Assembly (NCBI GenBank): GCA_021307315.1
Contig: JAJSPD010000033.1
Location: 372,001 to 436,000 of the forward strand
Reading direction: 5' to 3'
Length of the DNA: 64,000 nucleotides
DNA from: Bisporella sp. PMI_857
Taxonomy: Eukaryota > Ascomycota > Leotiomycetes > Helotiales > Helotiaceae
Part shown: one piece after another, positions 4,120 to 59,500 of the stretch
Layout: every line of letters starts with the position of its first letter
Position numbering within the stretch: the stretch's first letter is position 1
Program-made: the position numbers and the translations under genes
The notes under the pieces: model-generated
Database searches by the model: none
The model's input: the letters and a program-made list of their open reading frames with translations, nothing else
What the model was told of the DNA's origin: nothing

Positions 4120-7100
4120 CTATATTGCCTTTTTCCCTTGCGCAAACTCAAAAAACGAAATGCTTCCTGATGAATGCCCTATTGCGACATATCCATACCG
4201 AATAGCTACAAAAGTGGGTCGATAATCCGGTGGAAGCCAAAGAATATGTGTATCTTCTTCCGCAATCCACTCATTTGCTACGAATAAGCCATGCAGTTTG
4301 CCACCGGGGGAGATGATTAGGTCTGAGTGGACTAGGCTCCAGTGGCCCCTGAGCGTCTGCCGAGCCATGCCTGTCGTGGCATTCCAGAGCCGCACTGTAT
4401 TATCGTCAGATCCAGACACGACTAGCTCGCCGTCCGGCGAGAAAGCTACAGAGTAGACTGCGCCAGAGTGGCCTTCAGCGTCTGCCGAGCCGTGCCTGTC
4501 GTGGCATCCCAGAGCCGCACTGTGTTATCGTCAGATCCAGACACGACTAGCTCGCCGTCCGGCGAGAAAGCTACAGAGTAGACCGCGCCAGAGTGGCCTT
4601 CGAGCGTTTGCCGAGCCGTGCCTGTTGTAGTATCCCAGAGCCGCACTGTATTATCATAAGACCCAGACATAATTAGCTTGCCGTCTGGCGAGAAGGCTAC
4701 AAAAAAGACTGAGCCAGAATGGCCTTTTAGCGTTTGTTGTGCTGCGCTTGTTACGGCATTCCAAAGCCGTACTGTTCTATCGTAAGACCCAGACACGACC
4801 AGTTTACTGTCCGGTGAAAAAGCTACAGAGAAAACCGCACCAGAGTGGCCTTCGAGCGTCTGCCAAGCCGCGCCTGTCGTGGCATCCCAGAGCCGCACTG
4901 TGCTATCGTAAGACCCAGACACGACTAATTTGCCGTCTGGCGAAAAAGCTACAGAGTTGACAGCTCTAGAATGGCCCTCGAGTGTTTGCCGAGCCGCGCC
5001 TGTCGTAGCATCCCAAAGCCGCACTGTGTCATCGTCAGATCCAGATACGATCAGTTTACCGTCCGGCGACAGGGCCATAGAGCTAACCGCGCCAGAGTGG
5101 CCTTCAAGCGTCTGCCTAGCCGTGCCTGTCATGGCATCCCAGAGCCGCACTGTGCTATCGTAAGACCCAGACACGACTAGCTCGCCATCCGGTGAGAAGT
5201 CCACAGAGCCGACCCGGCTAAAGTGGTCATCGAGAGTCTGCCACGCTGAGCCAGGGCGACCCTCGAGCGTCTGTCGTGCCGCGCTTGTCGTAGCATCCCA
5301 GAGCCGCACTGTGTTATCGTCAGATCCAGAGACAATCAGCTTGCCGTCCGGTGAGAAAGCTACAGAGTTGACCGCTCTAGAATGGCCCTCAAGTGTTTGC
5401 CAAGCCGCGCCAGTTGCAGCATCCCAAAGCCCAACTGTGTTATCGTCAGATCCAGACACGATCAGCTTGCCGTCCGGCGAGAAAGCTACAGAGTTGACCG
5501 CTCTAGAATGGCCCTCGAGTGTTTGCCGAGCCGCGCCTGTCGTAGCATCCCAAAGCCGCACTGTGCCATCGTCAGATCCTGATACGATCAGCTTGCCGTC
5601 TGGAGAGAAAGCCACAAAGTTGACTCCGCTAAAGTCCCTTTCGAGCGTTTGTCGTGCCGCGCCTGTCGCGGCATCCCAGAGCCGCACTATGTCATTATGA
5701 GACCCAGACACGACTAGCTCACCGTCCGGCGAGAAAGCTACAGAGTTAACCGCGCCAGAGTGGCCTTCGAGCGTCTGCCGAGCCGTGCTTGTTGTGGCAT
5801 ACCAGAATCGTACTGTATTATCGTAAGACCCAGACACGACTAGCTCGCCGTCCGGTGAGAAAGCTATAGAGTTAACCGCGCCAGAGTGGCCTTCGAGCGT
5901 CTGCCGAGCCGTGCCTGTCGTAGCATCCCAGAGCCGCATTGTCTTATCGTAAGAACCTGACACGACTAGCTCGCCGTCCGGCGAGAAAGCTACAGAGTAG
6001 ACTGCGCCAGAGTGGCCTTCGAGCGTCTGCCGAGCCGTGCCTGTCGTAGCATCCCAGAGCCGCACTGTGTTATCGTTAGACCCAGACACGATTAGCTTGC
6101 CGTCCGGCGAAAAGGCCACAGAGGTGACTCCGCCAGAGTGGCCTTCGAGCGTCTGCAGCGCCGCGTTCCAGTTAGCTTGCACTCTGGGCTTAGTTTGGAT
6201 CCAATGTGGGATATCCTTTTCGAACTGTCTCCGAACAATGCTTTTCTCGGGGGTAAATACAAGGGCTGAGCAGTATAACTGGAGAGGAAACTGTTCGATT
6301 ACTGATCGGTTATATAAGACGAATCGCTTTGCATCATGGATATATGTGTGTAAATTAGAAGAGGTACCAGCCTTAGTATAAGTTAGTCAGATTTCTTAAA
6401 ATATAACAAAGGAGCTTTACTGGAATTAGAGTTTCTAAAGACAGTATTGCAAGAATCCCTTCTGAGCTCTTCCCTATCCAGCTAAGTGCCTCAAGCCAAT
6501 GAAGCAGATGATCCTGCAGAAATCGATGGATTTCTCCGTTGTCATGAAGCCTAGCGCCACTCCTTTGTAGATGCTGAACCCAGTATAAGCATGCGTATTG
6601 AACTTCAGAGGGAAAACACTCCTTAACGCAATTACTTTTGACTTGAGTGGTTAGACTACCAGGAGTATGCATTTCGCAGATATCCTTTTTGAGCGTCTCG
6701 GACATCAGCAGTAGGCAACCAGAAGCTAATATCTGATGCGCCTGCTTGTAATCTACCCAGAAATTGGAATCTCTGCATCGATCTTTATTAAGGAGAAAGT
6801 CGCGAAAGGAAGGGTGGTGTAGACGGAGAAATCCAGCAACATCCTTCGGAACGTCTAAGATGGCTTGTAGTTTCCCAAGCGTCTGTTTAACCTGTATTTC
6901 AGAGAGCCCAATTAATCTTCCCAGCGAGATAGCAGACAGCGGGGATGTTAAAATAACAATGCTTCCAAGAATTTGCCGCTGTCGCGAGTATAGCCGCATT
7001 TTCTCCGGTTCTCTGAAAGTAGTGGGTATAGAGGTTTGGAGTACAGTAAGATATATTTGGTCAAGGTGCTGTTCCGGTGCGCCGCTAGAGTTAACGCCAT

Positions 7101-50643: not shown

Positions 50644-51858
50644 CGGGAGCTTGCCAAGTTACGACCATCACCATTGCAATCGTACGACTAATGCGATCTA
50701 TTCCAGCCTATTTTCAATCCGGCACAACCCCTCTACTACCGCATGCAGTTGCCGGCATCTGGGTGGTTAGCTATTTCGGTCTATTATAGGATGATTTACT
50801 TTGCATCGACTCAACATTTGTGGAGGATTATTGGGTGCAAGAGAGAGGTCTTTGTTGTCTACGGGCTACGGGCTATAGAATGGGGATAGGATAGGTAAGA
50901 CAATTTTTACGGAACAGAAAACGCTTGTAGAGAACAGTTTAGCGAGTTTGTTTGGTATTGCGGTTTGGGCTTAGAACCGAGTTTGGACGTAGCTAGAATA
51001 GGCTTAGCGGATCTTCGACTGTGCCTCTGGGACTAAGCCGATTCCTGTCGTAATACTACTTACGGTTAGGCATATGTAAATACCAACCGTACTGTCTTTG
51101 CGTGCTATATTCTCAGGCCACATAACTTCTAAAGGTCATTACTATGGCCTATCGAGATCCGTAGCCGATGACGTATTCGGATTACTTCTCCCGGATCTAG
51201 CCGAGCTACTTTCACGACGCAAAAAGCTGAAGACAGAATCCGTCTAGAAAGCGAAGACCGCAAAGCAAAGCTTGAAGCTCGCGCCATTCGGAGAGCAGAA
51301 GCTTAGCCAGGCTTTCACAAAGAATCGGAAAAGGCCGAGGGTGCAGTTATAGTAAGCGACTGTCTCTTGAGGAAGCTTGTTGCGCAGAACAGCCTGAAGG
51401 GATTGTCCAGAGAAGCGAAAAGCAGCAAAGAAAGGATAGATCATAAGAAAGGGGAGCTAGAATTCGAGAAAACGAAGCTTGAGACGACGGAAGCTTTGGT
51501 GGCACTAATTTTGTACTTGTAGTTACAACAATAAAAGAAGGGGCATTTGGCTCTTATATCCCACGGTTATTCCACTAGTGAAGACTTCTCCACGCAAGAT
51601 TTACCCATGTAAGCTTTTTCCATGCAAGAATTTTTAGTAGTCAGCGGTAATTTTAGCCAACCCAAACCGAAAATTCAAGGGAGTCCAAACTCGCCCCATA
51701 ATGCAGTTAAGTCAGCACCAGTTAACTTTTAATAAGCCATCTGTATTTTGTACTGTATCTCTTGGCGAGATGTCACGCATATTTCAGAAGAAGCCGTGCG
51801 CAGTCCTGGCCTCCGCTTGATCAATGTTTAGAGGAAACATGAGTCTGAAGATTACGGT
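50644..51858. other. debris downstream of LINE remnant
   Basis: At about 51225-51520 the plus strand shows a stop-containing lysine/glutamate-rich stretch (EDRIRLESEDRKAKLEARA, SKERIDHKKGELEFEKTKLE) resembling a decayed coiled coil, origin unknown. Nothing else is recognisable. Confidence 0.35.
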
Positions 51859-54800
51859 TCAGCATAGTTCCCCGGAGGAAGACTCTTCGGATACGTAGCG
51901 TGCCTTGATCTTCCCCAACCCAACCCTTTCATACTGAATTCCCGAGGTCTTCTTCACGAGTAAAATGTGACAAGTCGTATCTTGCTCATTGCCATTTGCC
52001 GTTGCAATGACAACACATTGCCATGCACTGCAATTGGTTGTATCAAACGAGACCTTCTTCGGTTCGGCGTCTAAGACGAAATAATTACTTTCTTGGTTGT
52101 TCTGTTTGCAATTTTGAAGCTGAAGCTCTCTAACTTGGACAAGTAATACGTTTTTCCGCTCAGGGTCAAATTTCAGGTTCGCATCAACCGGAACCTGTAG
52201 GCTCTCGGCTGAGGGGAAACTGATGCGGGTATATGTCATCCAAGACCATGACGGTAAGGCCAGACCTTTATAATCCGATTCATTGCTGTCGGTCCCGTCG
52301 GGTCGTCGCCATAGAAGAAGCCGAGAGAGAAAGCGTGCAAAGATGCCAAATCTACATTCAGTCTTCAGGACACCTTCCATGCGTTTTAACAAGCCAGAAA
52401 TCGCAACCTCCCTATCTGGCTTCTCACTAAGGACAGATTGTGCGTATTTCTCGAAGAGGGACTGAATGGCTTTAATTGCAGCAGTATAAGTATAAGCCGA
52501 ACCATTGAAACAGCTTGGGAAATTAGGGTCCAGATATAAGCGTCCCGGGCCAGTTGGGCTGCAATGAATTAGATTTAGTAGAGGACGATTCGACGCACCA
52601 AGGGCCAATAAAATGGGTCTTACATTATTATTCGTCCAGAGTTTTCAGAAGCCAGACCAAAACCACACGTCCAATATATGCAATTTCTGGTAAAATGGAT
52701 GGTACGACGGGACAGTACTCTTTCTTGCAGCACCCAAGCTCTTTTATTTAGTGGACCGGCATCCACATCGTTCTGGAAATTTTTTAAGAGGTTATTGCCA
52801 AGTCTCTGTCGACAGAAGTCGTGAAGCAATTCCGGCTCAAGGAAACCCTCTTTCCAGTTCTCTGCTGAAGTAGCAGCAATAGTACAGTAAGCTGAACCAA
52901 AGACCTCTTCCATGAGCTTAGCTTCTGTATCCCAGTCGCTGGACTTTCTGTCTTCAGTTGTTTGAATTATACAAAGTGCGTCAATCCAAAGATACTTTTT
53001 CCTAAGTGCTCGAGTTACTTCAACAGCATGGCAGAATGTTTTTAGCGCTTTATCTATAGTAAGATTTTCCAACTGTTGGTCATAATTCTCTGAGGTTGTG
53101 CAGAACTGCTTCTTTTCTTTGTTGGTTGGACGCGGACCCCAACGATAGGAAAGCGCAACATAGTCAACATCTTTATGGAGCCTTTCCTGTTTCGACTTCG
53201 TCTCCCAGAGTTCTAATACTGGAAACTCCGAATCACCGACATAGATGACTCTTGTCGGCCAGAAATTTGCACTAGATTTGCAGCCGTGAGATTTGTCGCA
53301 TGCTTGGAGCCATTGAAGTAGTAACGCTAAGTATGGAGGGCTTTCAGTTTGAGAGATTCTAGAGAGGCTCGGCTGACTATGGTCAACAATCATCAGATAT
53401 CGTTTATTAAGATAAGCTAACTTACAAACTACACCAGCAAGCAAACCATGGTTAACGGTTATCACATATTGTATATTTCAAGTTAATTAACTTACTTCCT
53501 ACACCAGTAAGCAAACTATAGTTAGCAATTCTCACTTATTTTGTATTTTAGGTTAGTTAACTTACAAACTACACCAGCAAGCAAACCACGGTTAAAAATA
53601 ATTACATATTGTATATTCCAAGTTAATTAACTTACGCTCTACACCACAGTTAACAGTCATTACATATCGTGTATTTCAAGTTAGCTAACTTACTCTCTAC
53701 ACCAGCAAACCACAGTTAGTAATTATCACATATCGTGTATTTTAAGTTAGTTAACTTACTTCCTACAACAGTAAATAAACTATAGTTAGAAATCATTACA
53801 TATTGTGTATTTTAAGTTAACCAACTTACTTTCTACATTAACAAGTACACTATAATTAGTAATTATTTCATATGGCATATTTTAAGTTAATTAACTTACT
53901 TCCTATACCAACAAATTATAATTAGCAATTATCATATACTATGTATTTCAAGTTAACCAACTTACCCACTAAAACAGCAAGCAAACTATACTTAGCCATT
54001 TACATATCGTGTATTTTAAGTTGACTAACTTACGCTCTACACCATAGTTAACAGTTATCGCATATTGTGTATTTCAAGTTAACTAACTTACTCTCTATAT
54101 CAGCAAACCACAGTTAGCAATCATTATATATTGTGTAGTTCAAGTTAACTAACTTACTTCCTACACCAGCAAGCAAACTACGGTTAGCAATTATTACATA
54201 ACATGTATTTCAGGTTAACTAACTTACCCACTACAACAGCAAGCAAACTATACTTAGCGATCATTATATATTGTGAATTTCAAGTTAACCAACTTACAAA
54301 CTACAACAGCAAGTAAATTATACTTAGCGATTATCGCATATCGTGTATTTTAAGCTAGCTAACTTACAAACTACAACAGCAAGCAAACCACAGTTAACAA
54401 TTATTGCATATCGTGTATTTCAAGTTAACTAACTTACGTTCTACACCAACAAGCAAACTACGGTTAGCATTATTGTATATCATGTATTTCAGGTTAGCTA
54501 ACTTACTTCCTACACCAGCAAATAAACCACAGTTAGCGATCATCACATTTCAGGTTAACTAACTTACAAACTGCAACAGCAAGCAAACTATAGTTAGCGA
54601 TCATCGCATGTCGTGTATTTCAAGTTAACTAACTTACTCTCTACAACAGTAAGCAAACCACAGTTGGCAATCATTATATATCGTGTATTTCAAGTTAACT
54701 AACTTACTTCCTACACCAGCAAACAAACTATAGTTAGCAATTATTACATATCGTGTATTTCAAGTTAGCTAACTTACCCACTACAACAGCAAGCAAACTA

Positions 54801-55638
54801 TACTTAGCGATCATTATATATCATATATTTCAAGTTAACTAACTTACAAACTACACCAGCAAGCAAAATATAATTAGCGATCATTACATATTGTATTGTG
54901 TATTTCAAGTTAGTTAACTTACGCTCTACACCAACAAGTAAACCACTGTTAGCAATTATTACATATTGTGTATTTCAAGTTAACTAACTTACTTCCTACG
55001 CCAGTAAGCAAATTATAATTAGCAATTGTTAAATATTGTGTATTTCAAGTTAAGTAACTTACGTTCTACACCAGCAAGCAAACTACGGTTAGCAATTATT
55101 AAATATCGTGTATTTCAAGTTAGCCAACTTACTTCCTACACCAGAAAGCAAACTATATTAACGATCATTACATATTGTGTATTTCGGATTAACTAGCTTA
55201 CCCACTACAACAGCAAACAAACTATACTTAGTGATTATTAATATCGTGTATTTCAAGTTAACTAACTTACTTCCTACACCAGTAATCAAATTATAATTAG
55301 CAATTATTAAATATTGTGTATTTCAAGTTAAGTAACTTACGTTCTACACCAGCAAGCAAACCACGGTTAGCAATTATTAAATATCGTGTATTTCAAGTTA
55401 GCTAACTTACTCTCTACACCAATAAGTGAACCACGATCAGTAATATTCCATCTTTCCTTTCATCACTCACCTCCTAAATTCACGGTTACAGTTAGATAAC
55501 CTGCCTTATAGTACTTCGGTGTGTACATACATCCTATATCTACTTTAGATATACATATCCTATCTTCACCCGACAATTGAAACGTACCTTAAAGTCTTTG
55601 CGAATCCATTCAACAGTGTCAGTATCCGGAGATTCCAT
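51859..55638 (-). CDS. HET-domain protein with a predicted array of 31 one-codon microexons
   Basis: Proposed structure: exon 1 at 55588-55638 (MESPDTDTVEWIRKDFK, the only in-frame ATG), followed by 31 exons of three bases each. The HET exon is 52624-53372, starting PSLSRISQTE, and the last exon is 51859-52558, after the GTAAGA...CAG intron 52559-52623. All join in phase 0 up to the HET exon and give 530 residues. The HET domain shows YVALSYRWGPRP, KYLWIDALCIIQTTEDR and KRAWVLQERVLSRRTIHF. The later PSWSWMTYTRI block is also typical. HET proteins mediate non-self recognition and cell death. If the array is instead only a minisatellite, translation could start at the ATG at 53393 (MIVDHSQPSLSR). 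I prefer the microexon model because all donors, acceptors and the phase agree, with 31 of 31 units intact. Skipping any microexon still keeps the frame. Confidence 0.65.
53373..55587 (-). repeat. tandem array of about 70-bp intron-like units separated by variable triplets
   Basis: On the minus strand each unit reads GTAAGTTAGTTAACTTG, an AT-rich middle with TTGCTAAC, then TTTGCTTGCTGGTGTAG, three variable bases, and the next GTAAGT. Units are mostly 70 bp (range 58-75). Triplets (lowest plus coordinate): TTT at 53426, 53566, 54298, 54368, 54568 and 54848; GAA at 53496, 53760, 53900, 54158, 54507, 54708, 54993, 55133 and 55271; GAG at 55471; AGC at 53636, 54034 and 54923; AGA at 53694, 54092, 54638 and 55411; AAA at 53830; TGG at 53966, 54228, 54778 and 55202; AAC at 54438, 55063 and 55341. 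All 31 have a GTAAG or GTGAG donor after the triplet and a YAG acceptor before it. The first intron, 55474-55587, is 114 nt and mostly unrelated. The last, 53373-53425, is a diverged copy of the unit. Confidence 0.9.
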
Positions 55639-55939
55639 TTTGGTGTTCAGGTCAGTGTAGGCCTCTCCGTTCTCGTGAAAAGTGGCGGTCTTAAAACTCA
55701 GGATCAGCTGGGGCCGACGTGGCACGCGGTGTTTGGGGGGGGGGAATGGCTGCCAAGAAAGCCATAAGTGCAAAAAAGTCACTAAATCACGTGCTTATGC
55801 GACTCTGGCGAACTTGTCAGGAATCGGCTTACTTAAGTAGGCCAAGGAGCTGGGTCCCAATACGTTGACACTCCAGTGTCAGGGGTTCTGGTACACCTAC
55901 CCGGGGTAGGGATAAGTTTTATGACTAAGCACAACACAC

Positions 55940-56045
55940 CCCACCAAGCCTGTAACTACAGCGTAACCAGCCCTAAGTTACAGCGTGACTAGCCTAAAAT
56001 ACAGCATGTCCAGCCTGTAAACACAGGTAACCAGCTTGTAATACA
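55940..56045. repeat. short diverged tandem repeat (TACAGCGTAACCAGCCTAA-like)
   Basis: About four imperfect 24-27-bp units occur, built on TACAGCGTRACYAGCC and TGTAAAYACAGGTAACCAGC. It lies just upstream of the family B LTR and downstream of the short interval before exon 1 of the HET gene. Confidence 0.55.
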
Positions 56046-56138
56046 ACTAAAGCTTAAATAACTTTGTTTTTTGCTTGTATATTCATGCTACTGCTTTTTT
56101 TTAAAAAAAAATGTACTGTTAGTATTAAAGCTATTATT

Positions 56139-56354
56139 TGTCACGGCCCTGACTTCTTAGACGGAGCTCAGCACCGGACACCCTGGAGCTCGGACGGAAC
56201 TCAGCACCGGACATCCTAAAGCTCGCTTATACTGGCCTCCGGCCAGCTTCCTATATATACTTCCCTCTCTGTCTCCATAGTTCTGTAGTTCTATTATTCT
56301 CGATTCTTACCCGTATTACTTTGAGCCGTTGCTCTCATCCTACGTGCCGTGACA
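56139..56354 (+). mobile_element. solo LTR, family B with family A-type U3
   Basis: It begins TGTCACGGCCCTGACTTC and ends CCTACGTGCCGTGACA. Up to the CTATATATA box its sequence is that of family A, with a duplicated GACGGARCTCAGCACCGGACA module. Downstream it matches the LTR at 46933-47135. TTATT precedes it and CCAGG follows, so it has no target duplication of its own. Confidence 0.8.
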
Positions 56355-56567: not shown

Positions 56568-59500
56568 ATGGAACTGATAGATTTAGTAGAATCTAACGGG
56601 AGCCTAGAAGAAATAAGGCTTCTTCTTGACGGTGGTGCAAATATCAATGCTCAAGATGAACACCACGTGCTCTTCAAGCAGCAGCTGCAGCAAGTGAAAG
56701 CCAAGAGACGGTAAAGCTGCTTCTCGACCACGGTGCAGATGTCAATACTCAAGGTGGACATTACGGCAATGCTCTTCAAGCAGCTGCTGCAGTAAGCGAA
56801 AGCCAAGAGACGGTAAAGCTGCTTCTCGACCAGGGCGCAGATGTTAATGCTCAAGGTGGACATTACGGCAACGCTCTTCAAGCGGCTGTAGAGAACGGAA
56901 AACAAAAGACAGTAAAGCTGCTTCTCGACTATAGTGCAAATGTCAATGCTCATGGCGGATATTACGGCAATGCTCTTCAAGCAGCTATAGTAAGCGGGAG
57001 CCAAGAGATAATAAAGCTACTTCTCGATCATAGTGCAGATGTTAATGCTCAAAGTGGATATTACGGCAGTGCTCTTCAAGCGGCTGTAGCGCACGGAAAA
57101 CAAAATACAGTAAAGCTGCTTCTCGACCATGGTGCAGATGTTAATGCTCAAGATGGACATTACAACAATGCTCTTCAAGCAGCAGCTGCAGGGAGCGGGA
57201 ACCAAGAGACAGTAAAGCTGCTTCTCGACCGCGGCACAGATCCTAAGGCTCGAGATGACCCCCATAGGGCCATTCTTCAAGCATCCCATAGAAAACGCCC
57301 TAATACAACTGCCGATATGCTTTATAAGAGTGCGGATGGCCTAGAGCTACAATCAACAGACACGGCAAGGACAGTAGAAGGCACTACATCGGAAGCGTCG
57401 GGCACTTCACCAGAGAACCTCCAAAAGGTCATTCATTCAGGTAAAATCGATGACGTAGAGCAGCTGTTAAATAATCATTTTGATTCCGTGGCACAGGGGA
57501 TATTTGCATGGCTTCAGGAGCTTCGGCAGCACGGCTATGAGACAAACAAGATTGCGCAATTGCTTGTAACCGAGCAGAACGAATCACCTTGGATCTATTT
57601 TAAGCCTAAGCAATTTTCACAAGCGGCCATAATTCGCGACCATCATGAACCCTTCTGTGTTCATAGTGGCGGTTATGCAATTGGACATAGTACAGCGGCG
57701 ACAAGCGAAGGTAGCAGAAAAAATAATTGGTCGTCCAGGTCGCCTGATAGTGATAGTTTGGTGCTTATACAAGAGTTCTGCGGAATTGCTGGGGTTATTC
57801 CTGATGCTCCTGGCCTAGGCGAGCGGCTGGGTCTAGTGGAATTCATTGAAGAAGATGGCATATTGGCAGCGTCAGTAACTTGTCAGTTGCCTGCTAGCGA
57901 GCCGTACCATGCAGCCGAAATTCTTCAAGCTCTTGGAAGCTTGTGTAAAGCGATTTCACATGCTCAAAGAAGTGGAATATGTTGCAATTCTTTCACTGTC
58001 CTTAAAATTAAGTCTGACTTCTCTGCTGAAGAGATTATCGAGCTCTATCAGATCGATGTTTCGGTAGTGCTGGACCTACAATCGGAGCTTAAGTCTCTCG
58101 TTGAGAATCACGCCAAATATTTTGACCTAGACGACTTGGGGAAAGCTGCTTTGAAGTATGGGAAGTGCATATTCCAGGACGTAACACTATCATCTTTCAA
58201 TATCTCGAGAGTCAGTGGATTACTCGATTTCTATTCCCTGGAAACACAATTTCTTAGTCTAGCCTTCGCCTCTTACGTTGAATCCCACATTGGCGCAATC
58301 CAACCATTTTTCCTTGATACTCCTCTATGCGTTGTGGAATTATATGGACTGGAAGACTCGGAAACACAGTTGCTACGACTAGAGGCCTCCCTGTGTAGAT
58401 TGACATGTTTAAACGACATGATACAGAGTCCTGTGCTAGTATTTCGAGAAGGTAGAGCTCAACAGCACAATAGCAAAGAGTCATACGACTTGCTGGCCTC
58501 TCTAGAAGATTTGGTAGATACCTGGGGCCCTGGGCAATTTGTCAGGAGCGGTATCGAAACGGAATATCAAAATCTAACATCTATTATCATAGGCGGCGGA
58601 GTTATCAAACCAACGGCAGAAAACAACAAGGTCCTACATTGGAGCAATGATTTTGACCCACGCCACAAATTTTCGGTAAGCTTCAACTCGACAGAGAAAG
58701 TTCTGATAGCAGGAGCTGTTCAACCAAACACAGCTTGTTACATGGATAGAATTGCCCGTTGGGCTTCATTTGAAGCTTCACTAGAAAACTTGGGTACAAG
58801 TGCCGATTATTGGCAATTCACGGAGTTTCAGGCTGGAGCGGCAGTGACCGGTCAACAGTTTGCTGTCGCGCAAATCGGATTCAATAAAACCTGGACATGG
58901 CATGCGGGCAATAGCTGGAAGCGACAAAACTTGAGCTTAATCGCCGAAGAGTTGCCGTTTAGCGAGTTGGACCGACCTTGGGGCCTTCAAGTGAGTCCTG
59001 TACTGGTGTTTCTCGTAGAGTACCACTTCGACTGCTGTTGGCTGATATAATGCCTATATTTGCCGAAAACCTGGCTCTACCACCGGGCTGGTCGATTTTA
59101 CAACAGCAAGGGATACTAACAGCATTAAGAAATGGTGGTCAAAGCTTAAAAGTATGGTATAATGGCCTGTATAGCCTGCCAAACTTCCAGGATCTTCAAA
59201 CGTTAATGAAAAGGCTTATAAGGCACATATTACTTGTGCTTCGTGACACAGGTATCGACCGAGAGGGAAAGACTTTCCTGATTGCATGCCCACCAGATCA
59301 CACTGCTGGAAAACTAATATCGATGCGTCTGCCTATCCCATGCGAGAAGGCTAGTTTATGGGCGCAAATCCTCAAAGACTCACAGAACTGCGCTACTTTC
59401 GCATATATGACAAACACTTGTTTAGTGACTGAAGAGCACAGATGCCAGCGAACGAATGCTTGGCATTGTCCATCACTTGAAACAGCTGTTCAGCATTCAC

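Follow-up and report, generated by a model that had tools for sequence, protein, structure and literature searches.

Alternatively spliced microexons the size of a codon have been reported for NACHT-ANK (nank) genes of the truffle Tuber melanosporum (Iotti et al. 2012, cited by PMC4986451). Here we describe a comparable architecture in a HET gene of Bisporella sp. PMI_857 (Helotiales), which lies on the minus strand of a 64,000-nucleotide stretch of contig JAJSPD010000033.1 (positions 372,001 to 436,000; hereafter the window, in whose coordinates positions are given). The 5' part of this gene very probably represents a row of one-codon exons that are joined into a segment of the HET protein, built from a tandemly amplified intron-plus-codon cassette, with an architecture that would be old in this HET clade. 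A preliminary description of the locus had held that no described system resembles it; this was wrong, since the Tuber microexons came first, and the HET arrays are not without precedent. Both are fungal immune-like families that are expanded in paralogues and have multiple codon-sized exons, those of the HET genes being predicted from DNA, whereas the truffle genes encode NACHT-ANK proteins and ours Leotiomycete HET proteins with an N-terminal array. In the window protein, HET (PF06985; residues 88-234 of the triplet-free form, E = 3.9e-25, 89.3 bits against a cut-off of 22.5) was the sole Pfam family at E <= 0.001, and NACHT and ANK domains were not found there.

Long successions of very short exons are described elsewhere: in aphids, the exons of bicycle genes evolve fast and nearly all share a single phase, and megacycle has more than 100 microexons (PMC9168663); in one schistosome microexon family, an exon-length pattern is internally duplicated (PMC5825161). 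The HET genes share with these the many very short exons in a row, but every counted HET array exon is 3 nt long and, in the large arrays, accompanied by a tandemly repeated intron. Aphid and schistosome microexons usually exceed one codon in length. Schistosome microexon genes have consecutive short in-frame exons and encode secreted proteins; consecutive short in-frame exons are likewise predicted in the window gene. Single exons of 1 nt or 3 nt are also documented (PMC12940212, PMC8831610 and PMC7392893), and those of Fusarium CYP621A, plant APC11 and VPS55 and Drosophila hth similarly stand at the lower size limit and are accurately spliced, but they are lone tiny exons, unlike the arrays of the HET genes. 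For filamentous fungi, a Trichoderma paper states that no functional microexon had been described before its own one of 20 nt (PMC11121469). A word search of a literature largely outside subscription journals found no report of one-codon exon arrays in HET genes.

Three further fungal systems invite comparison. Introner-like elements are likewise near-identical introns that multiply, but they sit in unrelated genes, whereas the HET copies found stay in one locus and carry a codon. When the window unit was searched in the 55.6-Mb genome, at least 26 pattern matches and at least 13 BLAST matches were obtained, all at this locus, and an introner burst is therefore not supported. Stwintrons also require consecutive splicing reactions, but the HET array introns are each complete, with their own donor and acceptor and 3 nt between them, and in none of the counted ones does one intron interrupt a splice element of another. 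Fungal NOD-like receptors (NLRs), which are self-recognition genes, contain concerted WD, ANK and TPR repeats in tandem with a few fast-changing codons; those repeats are wholly coding, whereas the HET array codes in only 3 of about 70 bases.

Layout and variation of the window array

The window HET gene runs on the minus strand from a 17-codon ATG exon through a 114-nt intron, 31 triplets and a 53-nt intron to the HET exon (Table 1). As first described, YAG stands immediately 5' and GTRAG immediately 3' of all 31 triplets; the introns between them measure 55-72 nt, and 22 of these 30 lengths are not divisible by three. Phase 0 is found on both sides of the array, in exon 1 and in the HET exon, so the reading frame stays open whether all triplets are included or none is, which bears out the earlier claim that any subset can be skipped in frame. 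The last intron ends with TCAG at 53373, and use of an alternative CATAG 4 nt upstream would disrupt the frame. Tandem Repeats Finder (TRF) counted 29.9 copies with a period of 70. Because the units adjoin end to end from 55410 to 53426, no repeat copy lacks splice sites. The notion of 31 tandem units thus stood for the splice sites but had to be trimmed for the repeats: the first two units (intron 1 of 114 nt, intron 2 of 57 nt) are no clear copies, and 29 align well. Across the window, YAG-N3-GTRAG occurs 31 times inside the array and outside it 3 times on the plus strand and twice on the minus strand. A scan of the array for exon lengths of 0-2 and 4-12 between the same splice motifs returned none.

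For comparison by column, 29 of the 31 units were aligned; the first two were left out, their introns being no copies of the repeat, and two rows were corrected by hand at the acceptor. The triplet columns hold ranks 1-3 of 70 by entropy (1.85, 1.58 and 1.52), followed by a column at 1.30 and an intron mean of 0.42, and pairwise differences among units amount to 0.66-0.72 per triplet base vs 0.175 per intron base. In contrast to this variability, the AG before and the GTAAG after the triplet are invariant in 29 of 29 units, and the two branch-word As (columns 48 and 49) are A in every one. The pattern is not that of a passive repeat: its most variable three-base island sits between invariant splice signals. 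Within the array, each codon shows linkage to the 3' half of the intron before it (P = 0.0005), but to neither the 5' half of that intron nor the following intron. This linkage suggests that exchange breaks inside introns and that the units recombine, so that one tree does not fit. Parsimony on the intron tree gave 11, 11 and 11 steps for the triplet columns and a mean of 2.5 (maximum 8) for 54 other intron columns, a count that we do not use as proof because of this apparent recombination.

Table 1. Features of the HET gene, in window coordinates; triplets are listed in the order of transcription
Feature	Position	Strand	Description
Exon 1	55588..55638	-	ATG, 17 codons, phase 0, MESPDTDTVEWIRKDFK; WIxxxF motif, common to many homologues
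Intron 1	55474..55587	-	GTACGT...TTTAG, 114 nt, no copy of the repeat
Array: 31 predicted one-codon exons and 30 introns in between	53426..55473	-	splice-site reading, TRF; peptide ERNEWENESFWERFENFFWERSWEKERSFEF
Triplets 1-7	GAG 55473-55471, AGA 55413-55411, AAC 55343-55341, GAA 55273-55271, TGG 55204-55202, GAA 55135-55133, AAC 55065-55063	-	
Triplets 8-14	GAA 54995-54993, AGC 54925-54923, TTT 54850-54848, TGG 54780-54778, GAA 54710-54708, AGA 54640-54638, TTT 54570-54568	-	
Triplets 15-21	GAA 54509-54507, AAC 54440-54438, TTT 54370-54368, TTT 54300-54298, TGG 54230-54228, GAA 54160-54158, AGA 54094-54092	-	
Triplets 22-28	AGC 54036-54034, TGG 53968-53966, GAA 53902-53900, AAA 53832-53830, GAA 53762-53760, AGA 53696-53694, AGC 53638-53636	-	
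Triplets 29-31	TTT 53568-53566, GAA 53498-53496, TTT 53428-53426	-	
Last array intron	53373..53425	-	53 nt, GTAAGT...TCAG; public gene model P0001 begins within it
HET exon	52624..53372	-	249 codons + 2 nt, PF06985; entered in phase 0
Intron after HET exon	52559..52623	-	65 nt, GTAAG...TGCAG
Last coding exon	51859..52558	-	stop at its end (51859)

Structured RNA or snoRNA host introns were considered as an explanation for the array and rejected, as an Rfam scan of 51800-56200 gave no match at gathering score. The window also holds other tandem repeats: about 5.6 units of 99 bp lie close upstream of the HET gene (56668-57230), a length which we take to be that of ankyrin repeats, and about 14 units of 126 bp lie at 4351-6163, presumably the length of a WD repeat.

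Candidate one-codon exons in HET paralogues

With the HET exon as query, the 55.6-Mb genome gave at least 165 matches; 20 HET loci were surveyed with 5 kb upstream, which with the window gene makes 21 of the at least 165 HET places. Two or more YAG-N3-GTRAG sites spaced at intron distance counted as a chain. Sense-strand chains were present in 6 of the 20 other loci and in none of the remaining 14, and the antisense strands of the same 20 loci yielded no chain. When the 14 array-less loci were scanned for exons of 1-30 nt, a single chain of two 23-nt exons (L056) was found. The preliminary observation was right and extends beyond a single gene: as read from the genomic sequence, seven genes contain 172 one-codon exons, with 31 in the window gene, 29 in L043, 60 in L044 (extended by L063), 40 in L049, 5 in L046, 4 in L045 and 3 in L048.

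The 165 introns of these genes are 53-79 nt long, 104 of the lengths not being divisible by three. Their donors are mostly GTRAGT (150/165; GTAAGT 119, GTGAGT 31), their acceptors end in TAG (153), CAG (11) or AAG (1), and CTRA lies close to the acceptor in 148. Chain breaks are filled by nine of the 172 exons through variant sites (GCAAGT, GCAAGA, GTAAAT in two cases, GTATGC, GTACGT, GTAGGT, GTTAGT and one AAG acceptor), each exon still being 3 nt, and no unit without a donor or an acceptor was found inside the chains of the seven genes. Stop triplets are absent from all 172 exons, compared with 8.5% of the triplets inside introns; because array copies are not independent, the strict chance figure for this absence is about 0.002 (each codon type counted once per locus). 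Spliced frames, which were assembled for the four large-array genes (window, L043, L044 and L049), stay open from the ATG across the array and into the exon that follows, and all junctions are GT or GC..AG. In L044, the triplet columns have entropies of 1.85, 1.72 and 1.83, and the top intron column 1.84.

Some borderline exons were kept outside the count of 172, namely an initial 6-nt exon of L049 that forms part of its spliced frame, a strict site GAA in L048 that we take to close a contiguous exon ...NQE, and one possible extra 3-nt exon each in L045, L046 and L048, seen by eye. One gap candidate in L049 was dropped as too close to its neighbour. The 60-exon paralogue (L044 plus L063) begins with an exon that encodes a proline-rich PADEPP-type repeat.

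The arrays differ in the similarity of their introns. Adjacent-intron identity, calculated without shuffle control, is mostly 0.65-0.97 in the large arrays, and lies at 0.29-0.46 in L045, L046 and L048 and at 0.38-0.55 in the last eleven comparisons of L049. The leading one-codon exons spell N-Q-Y-A in L045, N-E-Y-R-F in L046 and N-E-Y... in L043, and in L048 the contiguous ...NQE is followed by Y-K-F, comparable with E-Y-R-F in L046. Neighbouring introns within L045, L046 and L048 show no clear similarity, yet the 3-nt exons of these genes partly spell N-E/Q-Y-R/K-F. We infer that a few one-codon exons may go back to the origin of this HET clade, and that amplification of units of intron plus codon would have followed later, locus by locus. 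On the HET tree, from which L047 was left out as its match is split in two, arrays are scattered, with at least three changes among 20 own-genome rows, so the tree gives no verdict on a single origin.

The N-terminal segment in homologous proteins

The homologue set comprised 121 proteins, 120 from 1940 matches and one from a further search. The WIxxxF of exon 1 recurs in many of them as WIHDDF, WIHKGF and similar. From this motif to the next shared block, 18 doubly anchored homologues have 34-169 residues, and the window gene has 45 with all triplets and 14 without. The residues DEKRHFWY make up 73% of the 172 array residues vs 41% in the HET exons; in nine homologue segments, which were cut by eye, the share is 34-75%. 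The metagenome homologues P0111 and P0121 have uninterrupted low-complexity segments of 122 and 86 residues at the array position, of which one is E/R-rich and one L/G/W-rich. Both proteins look like direct readings of genomic DNA, as they stop where the HET-exon donor would be read through, and their segments are possibly intron-loss products of one-codon arrays. Upstream of the HET region of the array-less L047, WIHDDF is followed by an unbroken charged stretch.

A possible counterpart lies in another fungal class. In P0046 of Fusarium falciforme, residues 1-225 consist of about eight repeats of a 22-25-residue peptide directly before the HET domain. The peptide resembles the translation of an intron that has GTRAGTGG as donor and GCTGAC as branch word, and P0046 may possibly represent such an intron array. 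A search with its residues 1-225 (8000 candidates scored) found, besides itself, only P0094 at E = 0.066.

Weighing of explanations and implications

The proposal that a tandemly amplified intron-plus-codon cassette contributes one residue per exon gains support from the column variability, the six HET paralogues with chains, the phase-0 open frames of four large arrays and the homologue segments of like length, and the initial reading was probably right. The 2.2 kb from exon 1 to the HET exon could instead be one long intron, or untranscribed DNA, with a 70-bp minisatellite whose triplets are never exons. Such an account would fit the tandem repeat found by TRF, the restriction of the unit to this locus of the 55.6-Mb genome and a public model that ignores the array. 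We nevertheless regard it as very unlikely, given that hypervariable triplets stand exactly between invariant AG and GTAAG, that six paralogues carry chains as well, the introns in three of these genes showing no clear similarity, that stops are missing from the 172 triplets, and that total skipping would leave 14 residues where the 18 anchored homologues have 34-169. Stepwise intron removal with the triplets finally skipped, that is, recursive or nested splicing of one large intron, would be permitted by consecutive complete introns and by a frame that survives the skipping of any subset; it offers no reason for the codon diversity, the lack of stops or the N-E/Q-Y residues common to paralogues, and little credence can be given to it. 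The absence of arrays from 14 of the 20 fetched paralogues would suit a decaying gene in which the array is a neutral relic, but this is scarcely credible beside the frames that are open through all exons of four large-array genes, the full-length HET domain match and chains in which every internal unit retains its donor and acceptor.

Combinatorial alternative splicing is compatible with real exons: each mRNA would contain a different triplet subset, and each gene would yield many receptor variants. All array exons are one codon long and in one phase, and the Tuber NACHT-ANK microexons reportedly undergo alternative splicing. The donors, mostly consensus, point rather to constitutive use. Exon skipping is rare where short introns are recognised by intron definition. 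We consider this extensive use of subsets rather unlikely.

Several observations weigh against spliced one-codon exons. The 31-residue order showed no clear similarity to the 18 homologue segments (permutation of the summed local score, P = 0.12) or to the five homologues closest in type (P = 0.49), so we make no claim on residue order; among single homologues, P0017 and P0043 reached P = 0.02-0.03 with 18 segments tested, and a by-eye alignment of the array peptide to P0003 and P0111 failed the permutation test. Two of the nine homologue segments, P0121 (34%) and P0011 (38%), are poor in charged and aromatic residues. Synonymous third bases are skewed far beyond HET-exon usage (TAT 19 : TAC 0, CAT 12 : CAC 0, TTT 10 : TTC 0), which protein-level selection alone does not explain and which is possibly an effect of splicing or ancestry. 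Among the proline codons of the 172 exons, 9 of 10 are CCT. In addition, the triplet columns rank 1, 21 and 13 beside 65 intron columns in L043 and 1, 1 and 11 beside 68 in L049, the L048 case comprises three exons only, one with a GC donor, and L050, L054 and L062 have no arrays in the same part of the HET tree.

The public gene model is a further point of this kind. The best protein match of the window gene is P0001 of Bisporella sp. PMI_857, 100% identical over 91% of the query, and it starts at an ATG within the last array intron (53373-53393), ignoring the array. The first residues of P0001 are probably not protein. Similarly, 12 of the 121 homologues have N-termini such as MIADLGVYGG or MxMIADLGVxGG, which resemble translated intron 3' ends. 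These starts suggest that other HET proteins of the clade may have wrong N-termini; one-codon exons escape gene finders.

If the one-codon exons are real, transcription would start from exon 1, and the ordinary spliceosome would recognise each 53-72-nt array intron as a unit and join the 31 single-codon exons in turn, giving a 31-residue charged and aromatic segment between WIxxxF and the HET domain. Paralogues that keep three to five one-codon exons between dissimilar introns would reflect the old architecture of the HET clade, and in other copies a block of the 3' part of an intron plus a codon would have been amplified in tandem. Unequal exchange could then add, remove or reorder single residues with the frame kept, while codons diversify and splice signals stay fixed. 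The HET family presumably comprises self/non-self cell-death proteins, from which a likely role would be that of a fast-changing recognition or contact segment. It is conceivable, though short of probable, that this device is widespread in HET genes, with unequal exchange varying the recognition segment by single residues, codons under diversifying selection and partial inclusion adding variants within one mycelium; it may then exist in other classes, as P0046 hints, with contiguous versions as intron-loss products.

Taken as read, up to 60 consecutive one-codon exons would bring the spliceosome close to the limit of what it can define, and these genes would let intron definition and the order and fidelity of splicing be tested in a natural setting. 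A HET-protein stretch could lengthen, shorten or alter by single residues, through a layout seen in the window gene and six relatives. Together, these arrays suggest a route to fast variation of self/non-self proteins, one amino acid per step and without frameshift risk.

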